DNA of 50,666 nt from a virus (IMGVR_UViG_3300047552_000782:1-50666), one strand, 5' to 3'; positions 2,747-22,199 are shown, counted from the stretch's first letter. Numbers and translations are program-made. The notes: generated by a model not told the origin, from the letters alone.

Positions 2747-3970
2747 TTAATTACTTTTAAAGTTATAAACAGGTTTTAGTATATCCACTACTTCAATAGT
2801 GTCTTTGGTGTTTTCAATTATCTCTTCCATATTTTTATAAGCCATCGGGGCTTCATCTAAAGTATTTCTATTTACACTGGTAGAGTAAACCCTACGCATA
2901 GATACTCTATACTCCTCAAAATCTAAGGAAGTTTTTGCCTTACTTCTACTCATAAGCCTTCCTGCTCCATGAGGGGCGGAGTAGTTCCAGTCTTTATTGC
3001 CTTTACCTCTAGCTAAAATAGAGCCGTCTCGCATATTTATAGGAATCAGCAGCAGCTCATTTTCAAAAGCCGATACAGCTCCTTTTCTTATAAATCCTTC
3101 TGGGGAAATATAATTGTGAATTGTCTCAAAAGTTCCTAATTGAAAATTAGTATCTCCTCCTGAAATAAATTTTACAATGCGGGAAGCTATCTCCATCCTA
3201 TTAATAGCCGCAAATTGTTGAGCCACCTGCATATCGTGAATATATTGCTGAGCTGTTGCTCCGTCAAGAAAGGATAAATCTTTCGGAACAGCGTAAACTT
3301 CTTTTAGCTTTTCTATTTTTTGAGTATGCTCATCTTCAGTTATTTTATTTTCTCCCTTATATTTATTAAGTTGAATGTTTAATGCCTTTCTAACAGCATC
3401 ACAATCTTTAAAAGCCCTATCTTGATAATAAGTGGCTATCTTATGCCCGAAATTTCTACTTCCGGAGTGAATTATCAGGTATTTGTTTTGCTTTGAATCT
3501 TCTGAGATTTCAATGAAGTGATTGCCACCTCCAAGAGACCCTATCGATTTTAAATGGCGCTCATATGTTTTAGTATCTCCTATGCGCTCACAAATTTCTT
3601 TTATGGTGTTGGACGCCTTGGCATTTATTGCAGGGTTAATCTTTGCATTAACACTATTTCCGTGAGGAATAAACTCTCGAATAAACATATCAATCTGCGA
3701 AAGTTTTAAATCTACCTGTCCGAGACTTACAGTTAGCATCCCACAACCAATATCAACTCCAATAAGTGACGGGATTATCCTGCCCTGAGGCATTGTAGAC
3801 GTGAATCCAACTACACAGCCTTTTCCTGCATGAACATCAGGCATTATCTTTATAGACTGGTCTTTAAAGATGGGGTGGTTGCAAATATCATAAATCTGCG
3901 AAATTGCTTCCTTCTCTACATTATCTGTGTAGATGGTAGCTGTGTTGTATTTTCCAGGTATCTCAATCAT
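2747..3970 (-). CDS. rtcB: RtcB family 3'-phosphate RNA ligase
   Basis: 407 residues with the full RtcB motif set: DVHAGKGCVVGFT, GVDIGCGM (metal-binding Cys), SLGGGNHFIE, HSGSRNFGHK and the guanylation region ending PHGAGRLMSR. RtcB joins RNA 2',3'-cyclic phosphate or 3'-phosphate ends to 5'-OH ends using GTP and Mn2+. In a phage this would repair tRNAs or other RNAs cut by host anticodon nucleases or toxins. The start MIEIPGKYN is chosen because AAGGAG lies just upstream; a longer in-frame start 18 bases earlier lacks such a site. It stands in an operon with phosphatase and Fic genes. Confidence 0.95.
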   Translation of the reverse strand: MIEIPGKYNTATIYTDNVEKEAISQIYDICNHPIFKDQSIKIMPDVHAGKGCVVGFTSTMPQGRIIPSLIGVDIGCGMLTVSLGQVDLKLSQIDMFIREFIPHGNSVNAKINPAINAKASNTIKEICERIGDTKTYERHLKSIGSLGGGNHFIEISEDSKQNKYLIIHSGSRNFGHKIATYYQDRAFKDCDAVRKALNIQLNKYKGENKITEDEHTQKIEKLKEVYAVPKDLSFLDGATAQQYIHDMQVAQQFAAINRMEIASRIVKFISGGDTNFQLGTFETIHNYISPEGFIRKGAVSAFENELLLIPINMRDGSILARGKGNKDWNYSAPHGAGRLMSRSKAKTSLDFEEYRVSMRRVYSTSVNRNTLDEAPMAYKNMEEIIENTKDTIEVVDILKPVYNFKSN

Positions 3971-4116
3971 ATTTTCTCCTTCTTCCATAGTGTATTACGG
4001 GTATTTTTCCAGTCTCTGAGTGTATTAGATTCATTTTTAGCATTAGGTGTTTTTGGGGCTCGTTTAGTTTGAAGTTTGGATTTACCATTTTAAACAGCAT
4101 TTCCATAAAGGCAAAA

Positions 4117-4422
4117 TTAATCATTTTTAAGTTTCTCAATTTCATTATCTAATTTATCTTTTAATATTTTATGAGGTTCTCCATACAGACGAGAGTAATT
4201 CCACTGTTTTCCTAAAAACCGCTGCGCCGAGGTGATTTGTTCTACAGGCTTGTTGAATAGCTCTGCAGCTTTTATAGCGTGTACATCGGCGACTAAGTTT
4301 TTATAAATAGCTAACTGCTTTTTATAATCATCTTGAGAATAATTAGCCATTACTCTCGGTTCTTGGGCTTGATAGTCTTGATTATCAAAAGGCAAAAGAA
4401 GGGGTTTAGGTTTTTCTATCAT
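4117..4422 (-). CDS. Hypothetical protein overlapping the recombinase gene
   Basis: 101 residues, polar, predicted mostly helical, starting MIEKPKPLLLPFDNQ. Its ATG overlaps the recombinase stop codon in an ATGA junction, so the two are likely translationally coupled. The C-terminal half (LFNKPVEQITSAQRFLGKQW) suggests a helical bundle. No known family recognised. The coupling suggests it could act with the recombinase, for example as a directionality or accessory factor, but that is only inference from position. Confidence 0.65.
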   Translation of the reverse strand: MIEKPKPLLLPFDNQDYQAQEPRVMANYSQDDYKKQLAIYKNLVADVHAIKAAELFNKPVEQITSAQRFLGKQWNYSRLYGEPHKILKDKLDNEIEKLKND

Positions 4423-5144
4423 ACTATAGCCTCCTGCTTTCCCTGAACTGTAATGCCTTTATAAGTATAAAAACCTCTATACTTATCGTTACTAAGAATT
4501 CTTTTAACTCTCATTGGATATAGAATATCTGTTTTAAACATTCTGTTAGTCTCTGCTGAAATCTTTTGATAGCCAAATCCTATATTTTTTAACATAAAGA
4601 TGTATTTGACTATCTCAACTTTTTGCTCATTTAAGACCAATTGCTTATTCTGAGCTTCATATCCCAAAGGAGGTCTACCTCCACTATACCCTCCGGTTTT
4701 TGCCTTTTGAACTTTGCCGGAGGTTAGGCGCTCAGTTATGCGCCCACGCTCGAATTCTGCAAAAGCTCCTATTATGGATCTCATAAGCTTTCCGGTATAG
4801 TCGTCTGCTCTAAAAGGTTCTGCCACAGATATTATTTGAATATCGTGCTTAAGAAGTTCCTTTTCAATAAACAATTGTAGCATTAAATCTCTCGCAATTC
4901 TATCAAGTTTAGCTACTATCACATATTGAAATTCTTCTTTTTTAGAGGCTATGAACAATTCGGAAAGGGCTGGTCGAATTTCTTTAGATCCTGAAACACC
5001 TTCTTCAACAAATTCTTGAATTATTTCTATATTATTGTGTCTACAGTAGTTAGTTATATCTTCACGTTGAGATTCAAGTCCAAACTTCTCAGGGCCTAGT
5101 TGTCCCTCGGTACTGACCCTAAGATATGTGGCGGCTTTATTCAT
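4419..5144 (-). CDS. Serine site-specific recombinase, short form
   Basis: 241 residues. Resolvase domain at 1-140 with catalytic Ser11 in YLRVSTEGQ, the LDRIARD motif (Asp81, Arg82, Arg85), and the long E helix ending in GRITERL. GGRPPLGY (155-162) is the usual entry to the DNA-binding Recombinase domain, which here spans about 160-236 and ends with the NDKYRGFYTYKG motif. It stops there: the zinc ribbon and coiled coil of large serine integrases (450-600 residues) are missing. It could integrate the phage, invert a segment or resolve multimers. Two bases separate it from the upstream gene. Confidence 0.9.
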   Translation of the reverse strand: MNKAATYLRVSTEGQLGPEKFGLESQREDITNYCRHNNIEIIQEFVEEGVSGSKEIRPALSELFIASKKEEFQYVIVAKLDRIARDLMLQLFIEKELLKHDIQIISVAEPFRADDYTGKLMRSIIGAFAEFERGRITERLTSGKVQKAKTGGYSGGRPPLGYEAQNKQLVLNEQKVEIVKYIFMLKNIGFGYQKISAETNRMFKTDILYPMRVKRILSNDKYRGFYTYKGITVQGKQEAIV

Positions 5145-5520: not shown

Positions 5521-7182
5521 TTATCTAATCTTAACGTGTCCTAACAACCCTTTTTCAATTCCGCATTCAATGTGAGTGAAAGGCTTCTCCCTACCTTCTT
5601 CAATTTCACAAACTGCGGCAGCCACGAAGGTCGAGGCATATTTGTAAATCGGCATTAAATTATATTTTATACAGGTATTTTCGTTTCTAGGCACATATTG
5701 TATCTTGGAAGTTTCTTTATGTTTTATTAGGTATTGTTTCATAAATTCTTTACAAGTTTCGCCTCCACACGGTCTAACACATCTTTCAGAGTCTTCGGAG
5801 GTTCGGCAGCATGTGTAGTTTATGTTTTCATCCCCTCTTATTTTTTGGTTTAGTTTTACACAAGTTGATTGGAATGAGAACATATTAAATAATTCATCTA
5901 TGTTTCTTAAAATTCCCTCTCCCTTAAAAGGAGCTTCTAATTCTTCATAATCAATATCAAGACGCTCCTTATAGTACGAAAGCTGCTCTGCGTTATTCAT
6001 ATCTATAAAATAAATACTGGCAGTTAAATCATCGTATCGAATATCTACAATATATTTAGATTCTATTACATCTTTAATGACGCAGTCTAAAGCTTTTTTT
6101 CTAGTGCGTATAGTATCAAATCCTAGTATTGTATATTTAGAGCTAACGTAATCATATTTTATATTTTCAAAGTTTTTAGTATGCCCTTTAGCTTTCTTTT
6201 TCAGTTCTCTCAAATAGGCTTGAGCGCATACAGCCTTTTGTTTGCCCAAGTCTGAGGCAGTATAAAATTGATTTCTTAAATTTTTCTCTTCTATATAGTC
6301 ATAGTCTGCCAATTTAAAAGTATTAATATAAGTCAGTCTGGCTAGTTGTTCTAACATATTAGTACCGGCGCTACCTAATCCAAGACAAATTACATCTTTA
6401 GTTACTTTAGACATATTTTTAAAACCAGATATTATATCTGCATAATCTAATGCAGGGTAGTAGGCAGACTCTTTTGTTACTCTACGCTCAACCGCATAGC
6501 CCGAATCGGTACATCCCTTTCTATAAGATTCCCATGACCATAAATCATAATCACGAAGAGATTCTCTGTTGTCTACAATACAGTCGGCACAATATCCCAT
6601 AAATAAGTTTATAGGAGCGCTTTCTGCTGAAATAAAACATCCGCAATCTTTGCAAAATATTCCTAACTCCTGGTTTATAATACTTACGTGAGTCCTAAAA
6701 TAGTCTGTTGGAGTTGAATAGGCGCTACTAGGATTAGGATTTTCTAAATTATACATAAGCTGATAAACATAGTTTTTAGGGCTTTTTAGTAATTGGTTAG
6801 ATTTAATTTCATTACAAAAATGCCCAAGCTTAACTTCTATGTACTCAGCACTGTTTTCGGGGTTTCGTAAAGTCTCAACTCTCTCTTGCGGTTGGACATT
6901 AAAGTGCATAAATCTATGAGGTATCTCATCTATAATATAAACATCTTCATTTTTTATGGCTAAGAATTTAACATTAACCGCTTCTGTGTTTCCTGTGAGC
7001 GGAATTGGTATATTCACAGGACGGGGTGCGTGTACAATAGCACATTTTCTACCCTGATTATCTACATATTTTTCTACTTTTATCGTTTCTTTTACGCTTT
7101 TTCTTTTAAGTGCTATTTTCTCTAAAATGGTGGTTTCTTCTGAAATTTGTTCTGGGATTTGCTCTAAAACCTGTTCCGACAT
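5521..7182 (-). CDS. E1-like (ThiF/MoeB/HesA family) adenylyltransferase with N-terminal zinc domain
   Basis: 553 residues. The C-terminal half is a ThiF/E1 Rossmann domain: GLGSAG (268-273) for ATP, the acidic end LADYDYIEEKNLRNQF (Asp293, Asp295, Asn301, Arg303, Gln305) and KQKA (314-317), then GFDTIRTR (Asp356) and YIVDIRYDD. These adenylate the C-terminal glycine of a ubiquitin-like protein. Cys458/459, 468, 472 and 477 cluster after the core and may bind zinc or hold the catalytic thiol. Residues 1-240 are not part of a usual ThiF: they include a strand-rich stretch and a four-Cys site (C177, C180, C198, C201). Encoded next to a ubiquitin-like protein and a JAB protease, which fits a complete activation and removal pathway. 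The leader has a strong AAAGGAG. Confidence 0.85.
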   Translation of the reverse strand: MSEQVLEQIPEQISEETTILEKIALKRKSVKETIKVEKYVDNQGRKCAIVHAPRPVNIPIPLTGNTEAVNVKFLAIKNEDVYIIDEIPHRFMHFNVQPQERVETLRNPENSAEYIEVKLGHFCNEIKSNQLLKSPKNYVYQLMYNLENPNPSSAYSTPTDYFRTHVSIINQELGIFCKDCGCFISAESAPINLFMGYCADCIVDNRESLRDYDLWSWESYRKGCTDSGYAVERRVTKESAYYPALDYADIISGFKNMSKVTKDVICLGLGSAGTNMLEQLARLTYINTFKLADYDYIEEKNLRNQFYTASDLGKQKAVCAQAYLRELKKKAKGHTKNFENIKYDYVSSKYTILGFDTIRTRKKALDCVIKDVIESKYIVDIRYDDLTASIYFIDMNNAEQLSYYKERLDIDYEELEAPFKGEGILRNIDELFNMFSFQSTCVKLNQKIRGDENINYTCCRTSEDSERCVRPCGGETCKEFMKQYLIKHKETSKIQYVPRNENTCIKYNLMPIYKYASTFVAAAVCEIEEGREKPFTHIECGIEKGLLGHVKIR

Positions 7183-7249
7183 TGATAAGCTCCTTTCATA
7201 GTTCTACAATCTCTTTAAAGTTTTCAATCTCTAAAAAACTTTAATGAAA

Positions 7250-7290
7250 GCCAGATTATCGAGCATCTGGCAAAGATCCTTACAAGGATT
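7250..7290 (-). terminator. Tandem hairpins between ubiquitin-like and E1-like genes
   Basis: A perfect 7-bp stem GCCAGAT/ATCTGGC (7250-7256 with 7265-7271) and a second 5-bp stem ATCCT/AGGAT (7276-7280 with 7285-7289) follow the ubiquitin-like gene. The U-run lies about 15 bases further on, so this is a weak or regulated terminator, or an RNA-processing site that adjusts the ratio of the two proteins. Confidence 0.35.
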
Positions 7291-7783
7291 ATCCGTTTCT
7301 TTTCGACGTTGCTACAAACACTGTAGTATCTTTATCGAAAACGTCGTTAGGCTTCAGAGTTTTATCTTGTCCTATTAGCTTGCCGGCTCCGAGACCGAGA
7401 TCTCTTTCAACTTGAGCTACGGTGCTGCCAGCTTTGATTACAACTCTTTCCTGCTTAGTGTGGTGAACTATGTTTAGAGTTATAGTTTCGTCCACAGGTT
7501 TAGTTTCTTTAGCGGGCTTTTTAAGCGGCTTTACTGGTGATTTTTTAGCAGCCGCTTTTGCCGGTTCTTTAGTTTCAGTCTTTGTTGCTGATTTTGTAGT
7601 TGATTTTTTACCGAATGCCTTCTTAACAACTTCGGCATCTGCGGTTGAAATGTTACTTGAAACAGATTTATAAGCAATCTTATTTGAATCCAAAACGTCC
7701 ATAACTTCTTTATTAGTTACTTTAAGTTCTTTGGATAAGTCGTAAATTCTCACTGTCTCAGTTGCTGTTTTTTTCTTAGTCAT
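7289..7783 (-). CDS. Fusion of an IF2 N-terminal-type domain to a ubiquitin-like (beta-grasp) tail
   Basis: 164 residues in three parts. Residues 11-57 (VRIYDLSKELKV, then KEVMDVLDSNKIAYKS and AEVVKKAF) match the small helical domain at the N-terminus of bacterial translation initiation factor IF2. Residues 58-98 are a Lys/Pro/Ala/Thr-rich flexible linker. Residues 99-160 have the strand-strand-helix-strand pattern of a beta-grasp (ITLNIVHH, RVVIKAGSTVAQVERDLG, LKPNDVFDKDTTVFVA), and the chain ends SKRNG with an exposed Gly. Position between the E1-like and JAB genes makes it the likely substrate. The Ubl assignment rests on pattern and context; a ThiS-like sulfur carrier is the main alternative. 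Confidence 0.7.
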   Translation of the reverse strand: MTKKKTATETVRIYDLSKELKVTNKEVMDVLDSNKIAYKSVSSNISTADAEVVKKAFGKKSTTKSATKTETKEPAKAAAKKSPVKPLKKPAKETKPVDETITLNIVHHTKQERVVIKAGSTVAQVERDLGLGAGKLIGQDKTLKPNDVFDKDTTVFVATSKRNG

Positions 7784-7812
7784 TTTAAACTATCTCCTTT
7801 TAATTTCTACTC

Positions 7813-8658
7813 TTAGTTTCTACTTACTATACAAGATTCACCAGACTGGGCGGGTACAAAACCTCCTTTCTTTCCCACTACCACAGACGGGTATGTTATT
7901 CTTTCCTCCAAACAATTTGCAGCTATTTCTTTTTTGCACTGATTATAGATAGGCTCAAACAGTGCTCTGTCAAGAGTTGCCGGTACTTCTACTTCCATTG
8001 TAGTTTTATGCCCGTTGCCTAAAAAGAATCCGGCGTGTACTTTTCCAGCTCTATTCATAATCAGGTAAGGGAATCCTTCTTTATCTCTCAAGTCATTTAT
8101 CTCTTCATAGTTATCCAAGTCAGTTCCGCTAGGTTTAACCATTCCGATATCTGCATGACTGTGCCAATCTAAAGTCCATAAGGGTAATTCATTTATAGGA
8201 ACTTTTTTCATAAACGCTGCTACCCATTCAGCTTCTACGTTAGCGTGAGCTTTTCTTACTACCTGATTCGGTAGGATTGTTACATCAGTAACTACTCCAT
8301 TTTCTATTTTTCCGAATCCGGTAATCTCTAACCCACCTACAATCTGAACATAGCAATTAATTTTTATCCAAGCTTTTTCGGAAAAAATAAGCTTTTCTGG
8401 TATGTTAAGAGTCAGTACATTCTGTAAATAAGTTAAGCACTCTTTTGGTCTGATTGGAATATGCTCAACAACTGGCGGCGGCTTTACAGCTGCTGCCACC
8501 GCTGCGGGATAAAATCCAACTCCTGTTTCTCTGTCTTCGTAATCTCCGTAAATGGCATCATACTGTGAGGGGGCTATGCCGGGAAGAGGTTTATTTGAAT
8601 AGCCCCTTTCACTGCTGTAGCTGCCTCTGAATCCGCCTCTGTTTGATTTTTTGCTCAT
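7813..8658 (-). CDS. JAB/JAMM metalloprotease (deubiquitinase-like)
   Basis: 281 residues. An Arg/Gly/Ser/Tyr-rich N-terminal tail (1-45) is followed by a JAB domain (about 75-260). The JAMM zinc site is complete: Glu111 in GGLEITGFG, His166 and His168 in DWHSHADIG, Ser177 and Asp180 in PSGTD. The spacer between the second His and Ser is eight residues, one longer than the common seven. JAMM enzymes cut isopeptide bonds after ubiquitin-like glycine or trim Ubl precursors. Since the Ubl here already ends in Gly, removal from targets is more likely than maturation. It lies 29 bases upstream of the Ubl gene. Confidence 0.85.
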   Translation of the reverse strand: MSKKSNRGGFRGSYSSERGYSNKPLPGIAPSQYDAIYGDYEDRETGVGFYPAAVAAAVKPPPVVEHIPIRPKECLTYLQNVLTLNIPEKLIFSEKAWIKINCYVQIVGGLEITGFGKIENGVVTDVTILPNQVVRKAHANVEAEWVAAFMKKVPINELPLWTLDWHSHADIGMVKPSGTDLDNYEEINDLRDKEGFPYLIMNRAGKVHAGFFLGNGHKTTMEVEVPATLDRALFEPIYNQCKKEIAANCLEERITYPSVVVGKKGGFVPAQSGESCIVSRN

Positions 8659-13463: not shown

Positions 13464-13769
13464 TTAATCTCCATTAAATTTTTGAATACATCTGTAAATA
13501 TTTTCTACGTTTCTGCCCTGAACATGCAAATCCCATATTAAGTTTGAAATGGTTCCTTGAATATCTGAAGATATCAAGGAATTATCTGCAAAATATAAAT
13601 AATCATAATATACAGGATAATCCTCTGGCAGTTTATCTCCTTTTTCAAAGGAAATATTAGTAGGCATGCTCATTCTTGGTGAATTAGAAACAAGATTCAA
13701 CATATTACTTAGCTTTCTTTCTAATTTTGTTTTCTTTTTATAAGCTATTTGAAAATAATTTTTAGACAC
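13464..13769 (-). CDS. Hypothetical protein
   Basis: 101 residues, basic N-terminus (KKKTKLERKLSNML), then an aspartate/tyrosine-rich middle (EDYPVYYDYLYF) and a C-terminal helix. It overlaps the upstream gene by eight bases. Looks like an alpha/beta phage protein; no family recognised. Confidence 0.55.
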   Translation of the reverse strand: MSKNYFQIAYKKKTKLERKLSNMLNLVSNSPRMSMPTNISFEKGDKLPEDYPVYYDYLYFADNSLISSDIQGTISNLIWDLHVQGRNVENIYRCIQKFNGD

Positions 13770-14265
13770 AGACTGCCTCCTTTACAAACCAGTCAGGTGG
13801 CTGTCTTTTTGTCCACCTCATTGGAACTTTCATCGTGTATTGTTTAGATATATAATAATTCCTATAAGACTCTATTGGATCTGAAGATCTATACTGATTG
13901 GGCATGGCTAATGCAAAGTTTAAGCGGCTGTTGAGTAATACATCTAAAGCATCGTCATAGTGGAAATTGGCGTAAAATAAACCTAGCAAATCTGTACATT
14001 TATGTCTTTTATCTCTACGCATCCTAAACTCTTGGAGCAAAGCGTAGTAGTGCTCAAATAACCAAGATCTATTTAATGAAGATTCTTTCAACCACAATGA
14101 ACACGGATGATTTTTATGGGTAGATCTATATGAAGTCTGAACTCCATTTTCATTTAGATAGGTACACATCATTTGAGCTGATTCCAATACCATCTTAATT
14201 ACGTGGCTATCGCATAAATTTTGTGCTGCTATTATGGGGTTTTTGTCTGTGGCAAATATGTTCAC
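13762..14265 (-). CDS. Conserved phage protein with CDxHVxKMxxE N-terminus
   Basis: 167 residues. The N-terminal pattern MNIFATDKNPIIAAQNLCDS, HVIKMVLESAQMMCTYLNE, then HKNHPCSLWLKESS and WLFEHYYALLQEF is a phage family I recognise as widespread, with invariant Cys/Asp/His/Lys residues, but without an agreed function. C-terminus basic with YTMKVPMRWTKRQPPDWF. The invariant polar residues suggest an enzyme. ATGA overlap with the zinc-ribbon gene upstream. Confidence 0.7.
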   Translation of the reverse strand: MNIFATDKNPIIAAQNLCDSHVIKMVLESAQMMCTYLNENGVQTSYRSTHKNHPCSLWLKESSLNRSWLFEHYYALLQEFRMRRDKRHKCTDLLGLFYANFHYDDALDVLLNSRLNFALAMPNQYRSSDPIESYRNYYISKQYTMKVPMRWTKRQPPDWFVKEAVCV

Positions 14266-21901: not shown

Positions 21902-22137
21902 CTAATACATTAACTTTTGAATTTATGGCTGATATGGATCTAAGCAATCCAAGGGTTACAAATAATGCAGCGAGAGTACTGTTAGATGACAAAGAATTAC
22001 CTGAATATTTATACAAAAATGAGGCAGTATTGAATAAAATATCGGGAAATTTGAAAGAAATTAGTAAAAATACTAAAGAAATATTGGATTATTTGAAGAA
22101 TATTGTTCCAATTGTGGAAAATGACGAGCAGGGTTAG
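21898..22137 (+). CDS. Hypothetical helical protein overlapping a tRNA gene
   Basis: 79 residues. Residues 1-35 MTNTLTFEFMADMDLSN... then a C-terminal coiled-coil-like helix (NLKEISKNTKEILDYLKNIV). Its last ten bases are the first ten of the tRNA-Trp gene. ATGA overlap with the gene before. Function unknown. Confidence 0.6.
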   Translation: MTNTLTFEFMADMDLSNPRVTNNAARVLLDDKELPEYLYKNEAVLNKISGNLKEISKNTKEILDYLKNIVPIVENDEQG

Positions 22138-22199
22138 TGTAATTGGTAGCACGATTGCCTCCAAAGCAATTAGTAAGAGTTCGAGTCTTTTACTCTGCG
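22128..22199 (+). tRNA. tRNA-Trp (anticodon CCA)
   Basis: 72 bases fold as a cloverleaf: acceptor GCAGGGT/ACTCTGC (one G-U), D-stem GTGT/GCAC with loop AATTGGTA, anticodon stem ATTGC/GCAAT with loop CTCCAAA (anticodon CCA at 22161-22163), T-stem AAGAG/CTTTT (one G-U) with TTCGAGT loop. The discriminator base is G, as in bacterial tRNA-Trp. The 3' CCA is not encoded. CCA reads UGG only, so there is no sign of UGA recoding. It probably supplements or replaces host tRNA-Trp. Confidence 0.9.

Follow-up and report, generated by a model that had tools for sequence, protein, structure and literature searches.

Ubiquitin-like pathways of prokaryotes have been described in defence operons of bacteria and on plasmids. 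Operons that combine an E1-like activating enzyme, an E2, a JAB isopeptidase and a ubiquitin-like protein (Ubl) occur in bacteria, in elements resembling integrative and conjugative elements and on plasmids, and a Ubl with a JAB is found in phage tail gene clusters (Iyer et al. 2006, PMC1779556); the Bil, cyclic-oligonucleotide-based antiphage signaling system (CBASS) and Bub systems are discussed in PMC10097602, PMC11354881 and PMC13373217. Here we describe a cassette of three genes, encoding a JAB-like protein, a Ubl and a long E1-like enzyme of the ThiF family, in a viral stretch of 50,666 nucleotides (IMGVR_UViG_3300047552_000782:1-50666, referred to below as the window). We favor the reading, with a probability of roughly 60%, that these genes give the phage a pathway for attaching a ubiquitin-like tag to proteins and removing it again; ATP-dependent activation and conjugation to proteins are its predicted activities. 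Some bacterial viruses probably run a protein-tagging pathway of their own.

Each described system shares part of this layout. In type II CBASS with Cap2 and Cap3 (Iyer class 6b), too, the E1 is large, its ThiF part starts near residue 260-300 after a comparably long N-terminal extension, and the JAB is separate, but CBASS activates the C terminus of its CD-NTase, whereas the window has a free Ubl gene. Cap2 is an E2-E1 fusion, whereas the N-terminal domain of the window E1 is a putative E2, and the PADLOC match is limited to the ThiF segment. No nucleotidyltransferase was found among the window neighbours scanned, which leaves the cassette outside type II CBASS as defined by a CD-NTase with Cap2/Cap3. 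The cassettes of PRTRC plasmids, which Iyer et al. put in class 6d and which encode Ubl, JAB, E1, E2-like and helical proteins, likewise bring the three components together on a mobile element, and ParB-like, Rad52/Sak and replication genes lie nearby, as they do in relatives of the window cassette. However, the window type has no separate E2 gene, its JAB and E1 sequences are distant, and the PRTRC_ThiF model scored 19.1 bits on the window E1 against a cut-off of 144.75, which is not a PRTRC assignment; the PRTRC_A and PRTRC_parB models reached just 13-14 bits in the relatives. Bil (BilABCD) and Bub operons have in common with the window a Ubl, an E1, a JAB and an E2 function. According to PMC11354881, BilA carries a pair of Ubl domains and the E2, BilB, is a protein of its own, while the window cassette has a single Ubl domain, an Asn-Gly (NG) tail and no separate E2 gene and so falls outside Bil; BubCD matches our E1 family profile in the adenylation core only. 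Lambdoid and T1 phages also pair a Ubl with a JAB, as TAPI and TAPK (PMC1779556), but their genes belong to the tail region and no E1 is described with them, whereas the window set lies in the early arm with one. The literature searched contains no description of the full E1-Ubl-JAB set, be it alone or together with an E2-like partner, as a recurrent phage module, although a prior report of phage copies is possible.

The three genes are as follows.
7813..8658, minus strand: JAB/JAMM isopeptidase-like protein of 281 amino acids, from motif conservation and a profile match
7289..7783, minus strand: two-domain Ubl of 164 amino acids, from the open reading frame (ORF), Pfam and AlphaFold2
5521..7182, minus strand: long E1-like activating enzyme (ThiF, PF00899) of 553 amino acids, conserved along its whole length in six relatives

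A first-pass annotation of the DNA had proposed a compact ubiquitin-like set in a phage, in three consecutive minus-strand ORFs. Coordinates and strand agreed for all three, and the computed genes, Ubl fold and E1 superfamily bear the proposal out. Good Shine-Dalgarno sequences (AAGGAG/AGGAGA) precede each ORF.

Six further complete cassettes with the identical order JAB-Ubl-E1 were found, five on IMG/VR phage contigs and one in a Melainabacteria prophage, so these genes are not neighbours by accident. The complete members are the window, L131/L119, L132/L181, L137, L179, L182 and G401. G401 has 45,949 bases with a 127-base direct terminal repeat, and its E1 spans the contig ends. L137 is the prophage copy. 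Its prophage takes up about 43.8-86.7 kb of a contig of 93 kb, and this contig, from a metagenome-assembled genome (MAG) of Candidatus Melainabacteria, also carries ordinary chromosomal genes. Single-protein searches with the window E1, JAB and Ubl had given no match in GenBank phages or IMG/VR, and an E1 pattern containing NLRNQF gave five matches that were chance or unrelated. The JAB pattern WHSH-x2-M-x4-SGTD hit at least 120 IMG/VR contigs but just 17 genome contigs; one of the viral contigs with a long E1 (long type) came from this pattern and further ones from E1 patterns. A first scan of genome contigs with three long E1s had found nothing, and the JAB pattern later gave the prophage.

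The long type is a sporadic phage accessory. Among 286 genomes of the order to which the L137 MAG belongs, the long E1 occurs in that genome only (the other matches are short generic ThiF proteins), and so does the long-type JAB; the N-terminal domain of the E1 is confined to the same genome among 382 of the class. L010/G001, which is related to the window phage and has a terminase of 47% identity, showed no JAB. Another pattern, built on the JAB, recovered exclusively long-type contigs that were already known, and the type is therefore probably rare rather than overlooked by one motif. An assignment of the window phage to Melainabacteria as its host was considered and not adopted, as terminase matches reached just 28-33% in 4 of the 286 genomes of the order.

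The features of the Ubl are as follows.
7607..7762, minus strand: IF2_N domain, residues 8-59 (PF04760, E value 1.4e-8)
7292..7495, minus strand: ubiquitin-fold domain, residues 97-164 (AlphaFold2 with Foldseek and VIA-align)
7292..7309, minus strand: C-terminal tail TSKRNG with a free glycine (K[KR]NG in relatives)

AlphaFold2 modeled residues 100-160 as a beta-grasp with a predicted local distance difference test score (pLDDT) of 82-92. In Foldseek and VIA-align comparisons the model matched ubiquitin, FAT10, ISG15, TtuB and further Ubl domains, with Z up to 9.6 and a root mean square deviation of 1.8 over 64 residues. The beta-grasp that had been predicted for residues 99-164 thus came through a structure prediction as a ubiquitin fold, and with the last residue, G164, the protein combines this fold with a C-terminal glycine. 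The free terminal glycine was also noted correctly, and in all seven complete members the Ubl ends in K[KR]NG with zero residues beyond, although the Ubls have diverged to 20-27% identity to the window Ubl. The IF2_N domain had been missed before; it is found in the window Ubl only and is absent from the six others.

The features of the E1 are as follows.
6397..7077, minus strand: N-terminal region of ~230 amino acids, putative fused E2-like domain, with the conserved residues H93-x-N95 and C123
6580..6654, minus strand: zinc-ribbon-like cysteine pairs, C177-x2-C180...C198-x2-C201, resembling the JAB C-terminal motif of relatives
5947..6399, minus strand: adenylation domain core with GLGSAG, DYDYIEEKNLRNQ, K316, D356 and R361 (Pfam and alignment)
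5671..5673, minus strand: C504, candidate cysteine for the thioester; short phage E1s have a conserved EPC at this position

Residues 263-338 match Pfam ThiF PF00899 with 42 bits against a cut-off of 28.1, and the E1 family profile matches UBA5, NAE, SAE2, MccB and MoeB in the PDB (E values down to 2e-7). G-x-GSAG, K316, D356 and R361 are kept in all six aligned E1s. With a domain above the cut-off, a nucleotide loop and the catalytic Asp, the protein belongs to the E1/ThiF superfamily. The GLGSAG motif reported earlier stood, while NLRNQF, which had been read as a metal motif, occupies the canonical RQ segment; the Mg ligand is presumably D356, in GFD. Of the Cys residues that the aligned long E1s share, C504 is invariant (6/6) and matches the EPC consensus of the short family. 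In a phylogenetic tree, the long E1s form one clade with support of 100/100 and group with phage and plasmid E1s, apart from host proteins of the ThiF/TcdA type.

All seven E1s have an extra N-terminal domain of about 240-270 amino acids, in which H93, N95 and C123 form an H-x-N...Cys motif that is invariant in the six aligned sequences and in the seventh member. This domain may have E2-like character, which would make the protein an E2-E1 fusion comparable to CBASS Cap2. The suggestion stems from the motif together with a complementary distribution seen in a sister family, the short type, which has a separate Cys protein; the long type has no such protein upstream but has the extended E1. The first-pass annotation saw no recognisable E2, and there is indeed no separate E2 gene; an E2 may nevertheless be present in fused form, to judge from the motif shared by 7/7 E1s.

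The sister family comprises at least 120 phage contigs with a Ubl ending in GG, a separate E2-like protein with an invariant Cys, a JAB and a short E1, and the operon order Ubl(GG) - Cys protein - JAB - short E1 is widespread (L011-L130). Counts for it are among the matches listed, with 95 loci that had enough sequence and 48 that had enough upstream sequence. The E1 lies directly 3' of the JAB in 93 of the 95 loci, in 89 of them overlapping or at most 20 nucleotides apart. Upstream, a Cys protein of ~500 amino acids stands just before the JAB in 41/48 and a Ubl is present in 42/48. One Cys of the separate protein is invariant (72/72), mostly in the context HP[YFH]V...G-x-C, which resembles the HPN...C site of E2 enzymes. 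Many short-family Ubls have 1-6 residues past GG, a reason for a JAB even ahead of conjugation. The roughly 50,000 GenBank phage records are nearly free of the wider family: they gave one weak, unannotated match, the human faecal phage contig MT835544 (L186:4441-7594), in which a JAB and an E1 are followed by a reverse-transcriptase-like gene. Being common in uncultivated phages and near-absent from GenBank phages, the family could easily be overlooked. Saccharibacteria MAG contigs (L139:1431-3001 and L140:6383-7970) also encode a JAB, a short E1 and a Ubl, in a different order, and there the last two residues of the Ubl are NG.

The JAB has one feature of its own.
8119..8163, minus strand: JAMM motif HSHADIGMVKPSGTD, its loop being x8 where x7 is canonical

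E111 and the segment D164-W165-H166-S167-H168...S177-G-T-D180, with the zinc-site residues E111, H166, H168, S177 and D180, are present in the window JAB and kept in all six relatives first aligned (6/6); the active-site motif is also kept in a seventh member (L192). The loop is HxH-x8-S in the window and x7 in all 110 others among the matches listed, a sample that was partly chosen for x7, although relatives found via their E1 also have x7. The strict JAMM pattern E...HxH-x7-S-x2-D is therefore not matched: the ligand residues are there and the spacing differs, so that the full zinc site reported earlier stood in its residues and not in its spacing. The window JAB also scored below the cut-off of every JAB model scanned. 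A profile of the short-type phage JABs nevertheless matches it at 8.9e-11, and by this sequence comparison the protein is homologous to JABs and fails the strict motif alone. The JABs of six relatives end in CxxC...CxxC, whereas the window JAB lacks this C-terminal Cys ribbon; a ribbon-like motif lies in the window E1 instead, a hint that JAB and E1 act jointly.

Taken as a pathway, the cassette would work as follows. The E1 would adenylate the C-terminal glycine of the Ubl, which would then move onto the E1 as a thioester, with C504 as the candidate site. The thioester would be passed to C123 in the putative E2-like N-terminal domain of the same protein, and from there the Ubl would be transferred to amino groups of target proteins, until the JAB takes the tag off again. 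Trimming of the Ubl would not be needed, since the K[KR]NG tail is already mature. In the sister family each step would fall to a protein of its own, the E1, the Cys protein or the JAB, and trimming of those Ubls that have 1-6 residues past GG may be a second task of the JAB. The cassette is compact enough for reconstitution within a laboratory strain.

Several observations weigh against conjugation. In the RQ motif of the E1, the Arg does not stand at its canonical position. AlphaFold modeled the N-terminal domain with low confidence (pLDDT 34), hhalign gave no match to the profile of the separate E2-like family, and the domain's own profile matched nothing in Pfam or the PDB, so that the E2 assignment is unproven. 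The UBC matches of the separate Cys protein, which count for an E2 role by their position at the HP..C site, are below significance (UQ_con at best 0.022, PDB UBC4 1.3). The extra residue in the JAMM loop makes the protease activity of the window JAB uncertain, and with the Cys ribbon also missing the protein may be inactive. Finally, no single-strand annealing protein was found among the window neighbours tested, and the link to recombination described next therefore rests on the relatives.

Gene context in those relatives leans towards DNA recombination and replication. Of 80 non-redundant genes 3' of a short E1, among the matches listed, 50 encode AAA_24 proteins, which we take to be Sak4-type, and 14 encode ERF proteins (64/80). 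The prophage cassette L137 lies near genes for a ParB-like protein, Sak, YqaJ, SSB and DnaB; homologues of most of these neighbours follow the cassette in L132, and in G401 similar-looking genes, read by eye, follow it in the same order. Related plasmid clusters adjoin Rad52 and dnaN. From this setting, the targets would lie in the DNA recombination and replication machinery of the phage, and recombination or replication proteins are the likeliest targets, a choice we offer tentatively. Equally speculative is the fuller proposal of a phage pathway that modifies such proteins (annealing proteins, clamps), of which the window type would be a version with E1 and E2 in one protein and an IF2_N-fused, Asn-Gly-tailed modifier. 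If true, it would be a viral counterpart of PCNA/RPA modification. The recurring position next to recombinases of the single-strand annealing kind yields a specific hypothesis on the targets that can be put to the test.

The same context bears on the other explanations. It is rather unlikely that this is a defence-type cassette of temperate or competing phages, which would tag rival virion proteins or a host sensor. Bil reportedly tags phage tail fibres. Similar toolkits occur in Bil and CBASS (PMC10097602, PMC13373217), one copy of the cassette sits in a prophage, and the PADLOC models for the E1-E2 protein of CBASS give a weak match to the ThiF part (1.5e-6). However, the PADLOC matches are limited to generic ThiF and JAB segments, the cassette has no conserved effector or nucleotidyltransferase, and it occupies no cargo spot, its place being with the early replication genes.

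A sulfur-transfer role has a lower probability than conjugation, and we regard it as unlikely: here the E1 would make a Ubl thiocarboxylate for tRNA thiolation or a cysteine-type pathway, and the JAB would regenerate the Ubl, as in CysO/Mec+. Sulfur assimilation gene clusters also combine E1, Ubl and JAB and have no E2 gene of their own (PMC1779556), the Ubl model resembles MoaD-type proteins as well as TtuB, and one sister-family Ubl scores just over the Pfam ThiS cut-off. Against this stand the fourth, Cys-containing protein of the sister cassettes, the recombination genes as neighbours, and a search of six records that found neither a rhodanese nor a TtuA-type gene (ATP_bind_3); one of these records is terminally redundant and most are possibly fragments, with host partners possible. 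The sulfur compound considered in the first-pass annotation thus finds no support in the neighbours.

Counter-defence or host takeover, in which the phage Ubl would tag host proteins or the JAB would strip host Bil or CBASS tags, is improbable. The phage location and the presence of a JAB are in keeping with it, but pure de-tagging requires neither a Ubl nor an E1, all seven cassettes retain the three genes, and the JAB loop of the window is atypical. Least probable of all is a degenerate or non-enzymatic remnant with a decaying, inactive JAB, which the x8 loop and the lost Cys ribbon, unlike in all relatives, would suit, but not the three intact ORFs with their Shine-Dalgarno sites, the fully retained E1 and Ubl motifs or the ribbon-like motif that the E1 bears instead.

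Between the Ubl and E1 genes, a hairpin search found one further feature.
7250..7271, minus strand: hairpin, possible attenuator

A hairpin in this gap could hold Ubl production above that of the E1. Strict terminators were found in the gap in 3/6 cassettes (L131, L132 and L137) and not in the window. The hairpin seen at L137:6726-6781 has counterparts in L131, L132 and L182, with a T-run in the three strict cases. A terminator as a conserved feature of the family was dropped, since only three of six were strict and one of two control matches was itself a cassette gap.

Elsewhere in the window, positions 4117-5144 encode a 241-amino-acid serine recombinase (CcrB-like N-terminal part) directly followed by a 101-amino-acid DNA polymerase A fragment; the two may be what is left of a gene that was split or rearranged. 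An RtcB-family RNA ligase is encoded at 2747-3988 and a tRNA-Trp gene lies at 22128-22199. The arm with the cassette also carries genes for a Fic-domain protein (148-729), a dual-specificity-phosphatase-like protein (1517-2017) and a pyrimidine dimer glycosylase (13762-14265).

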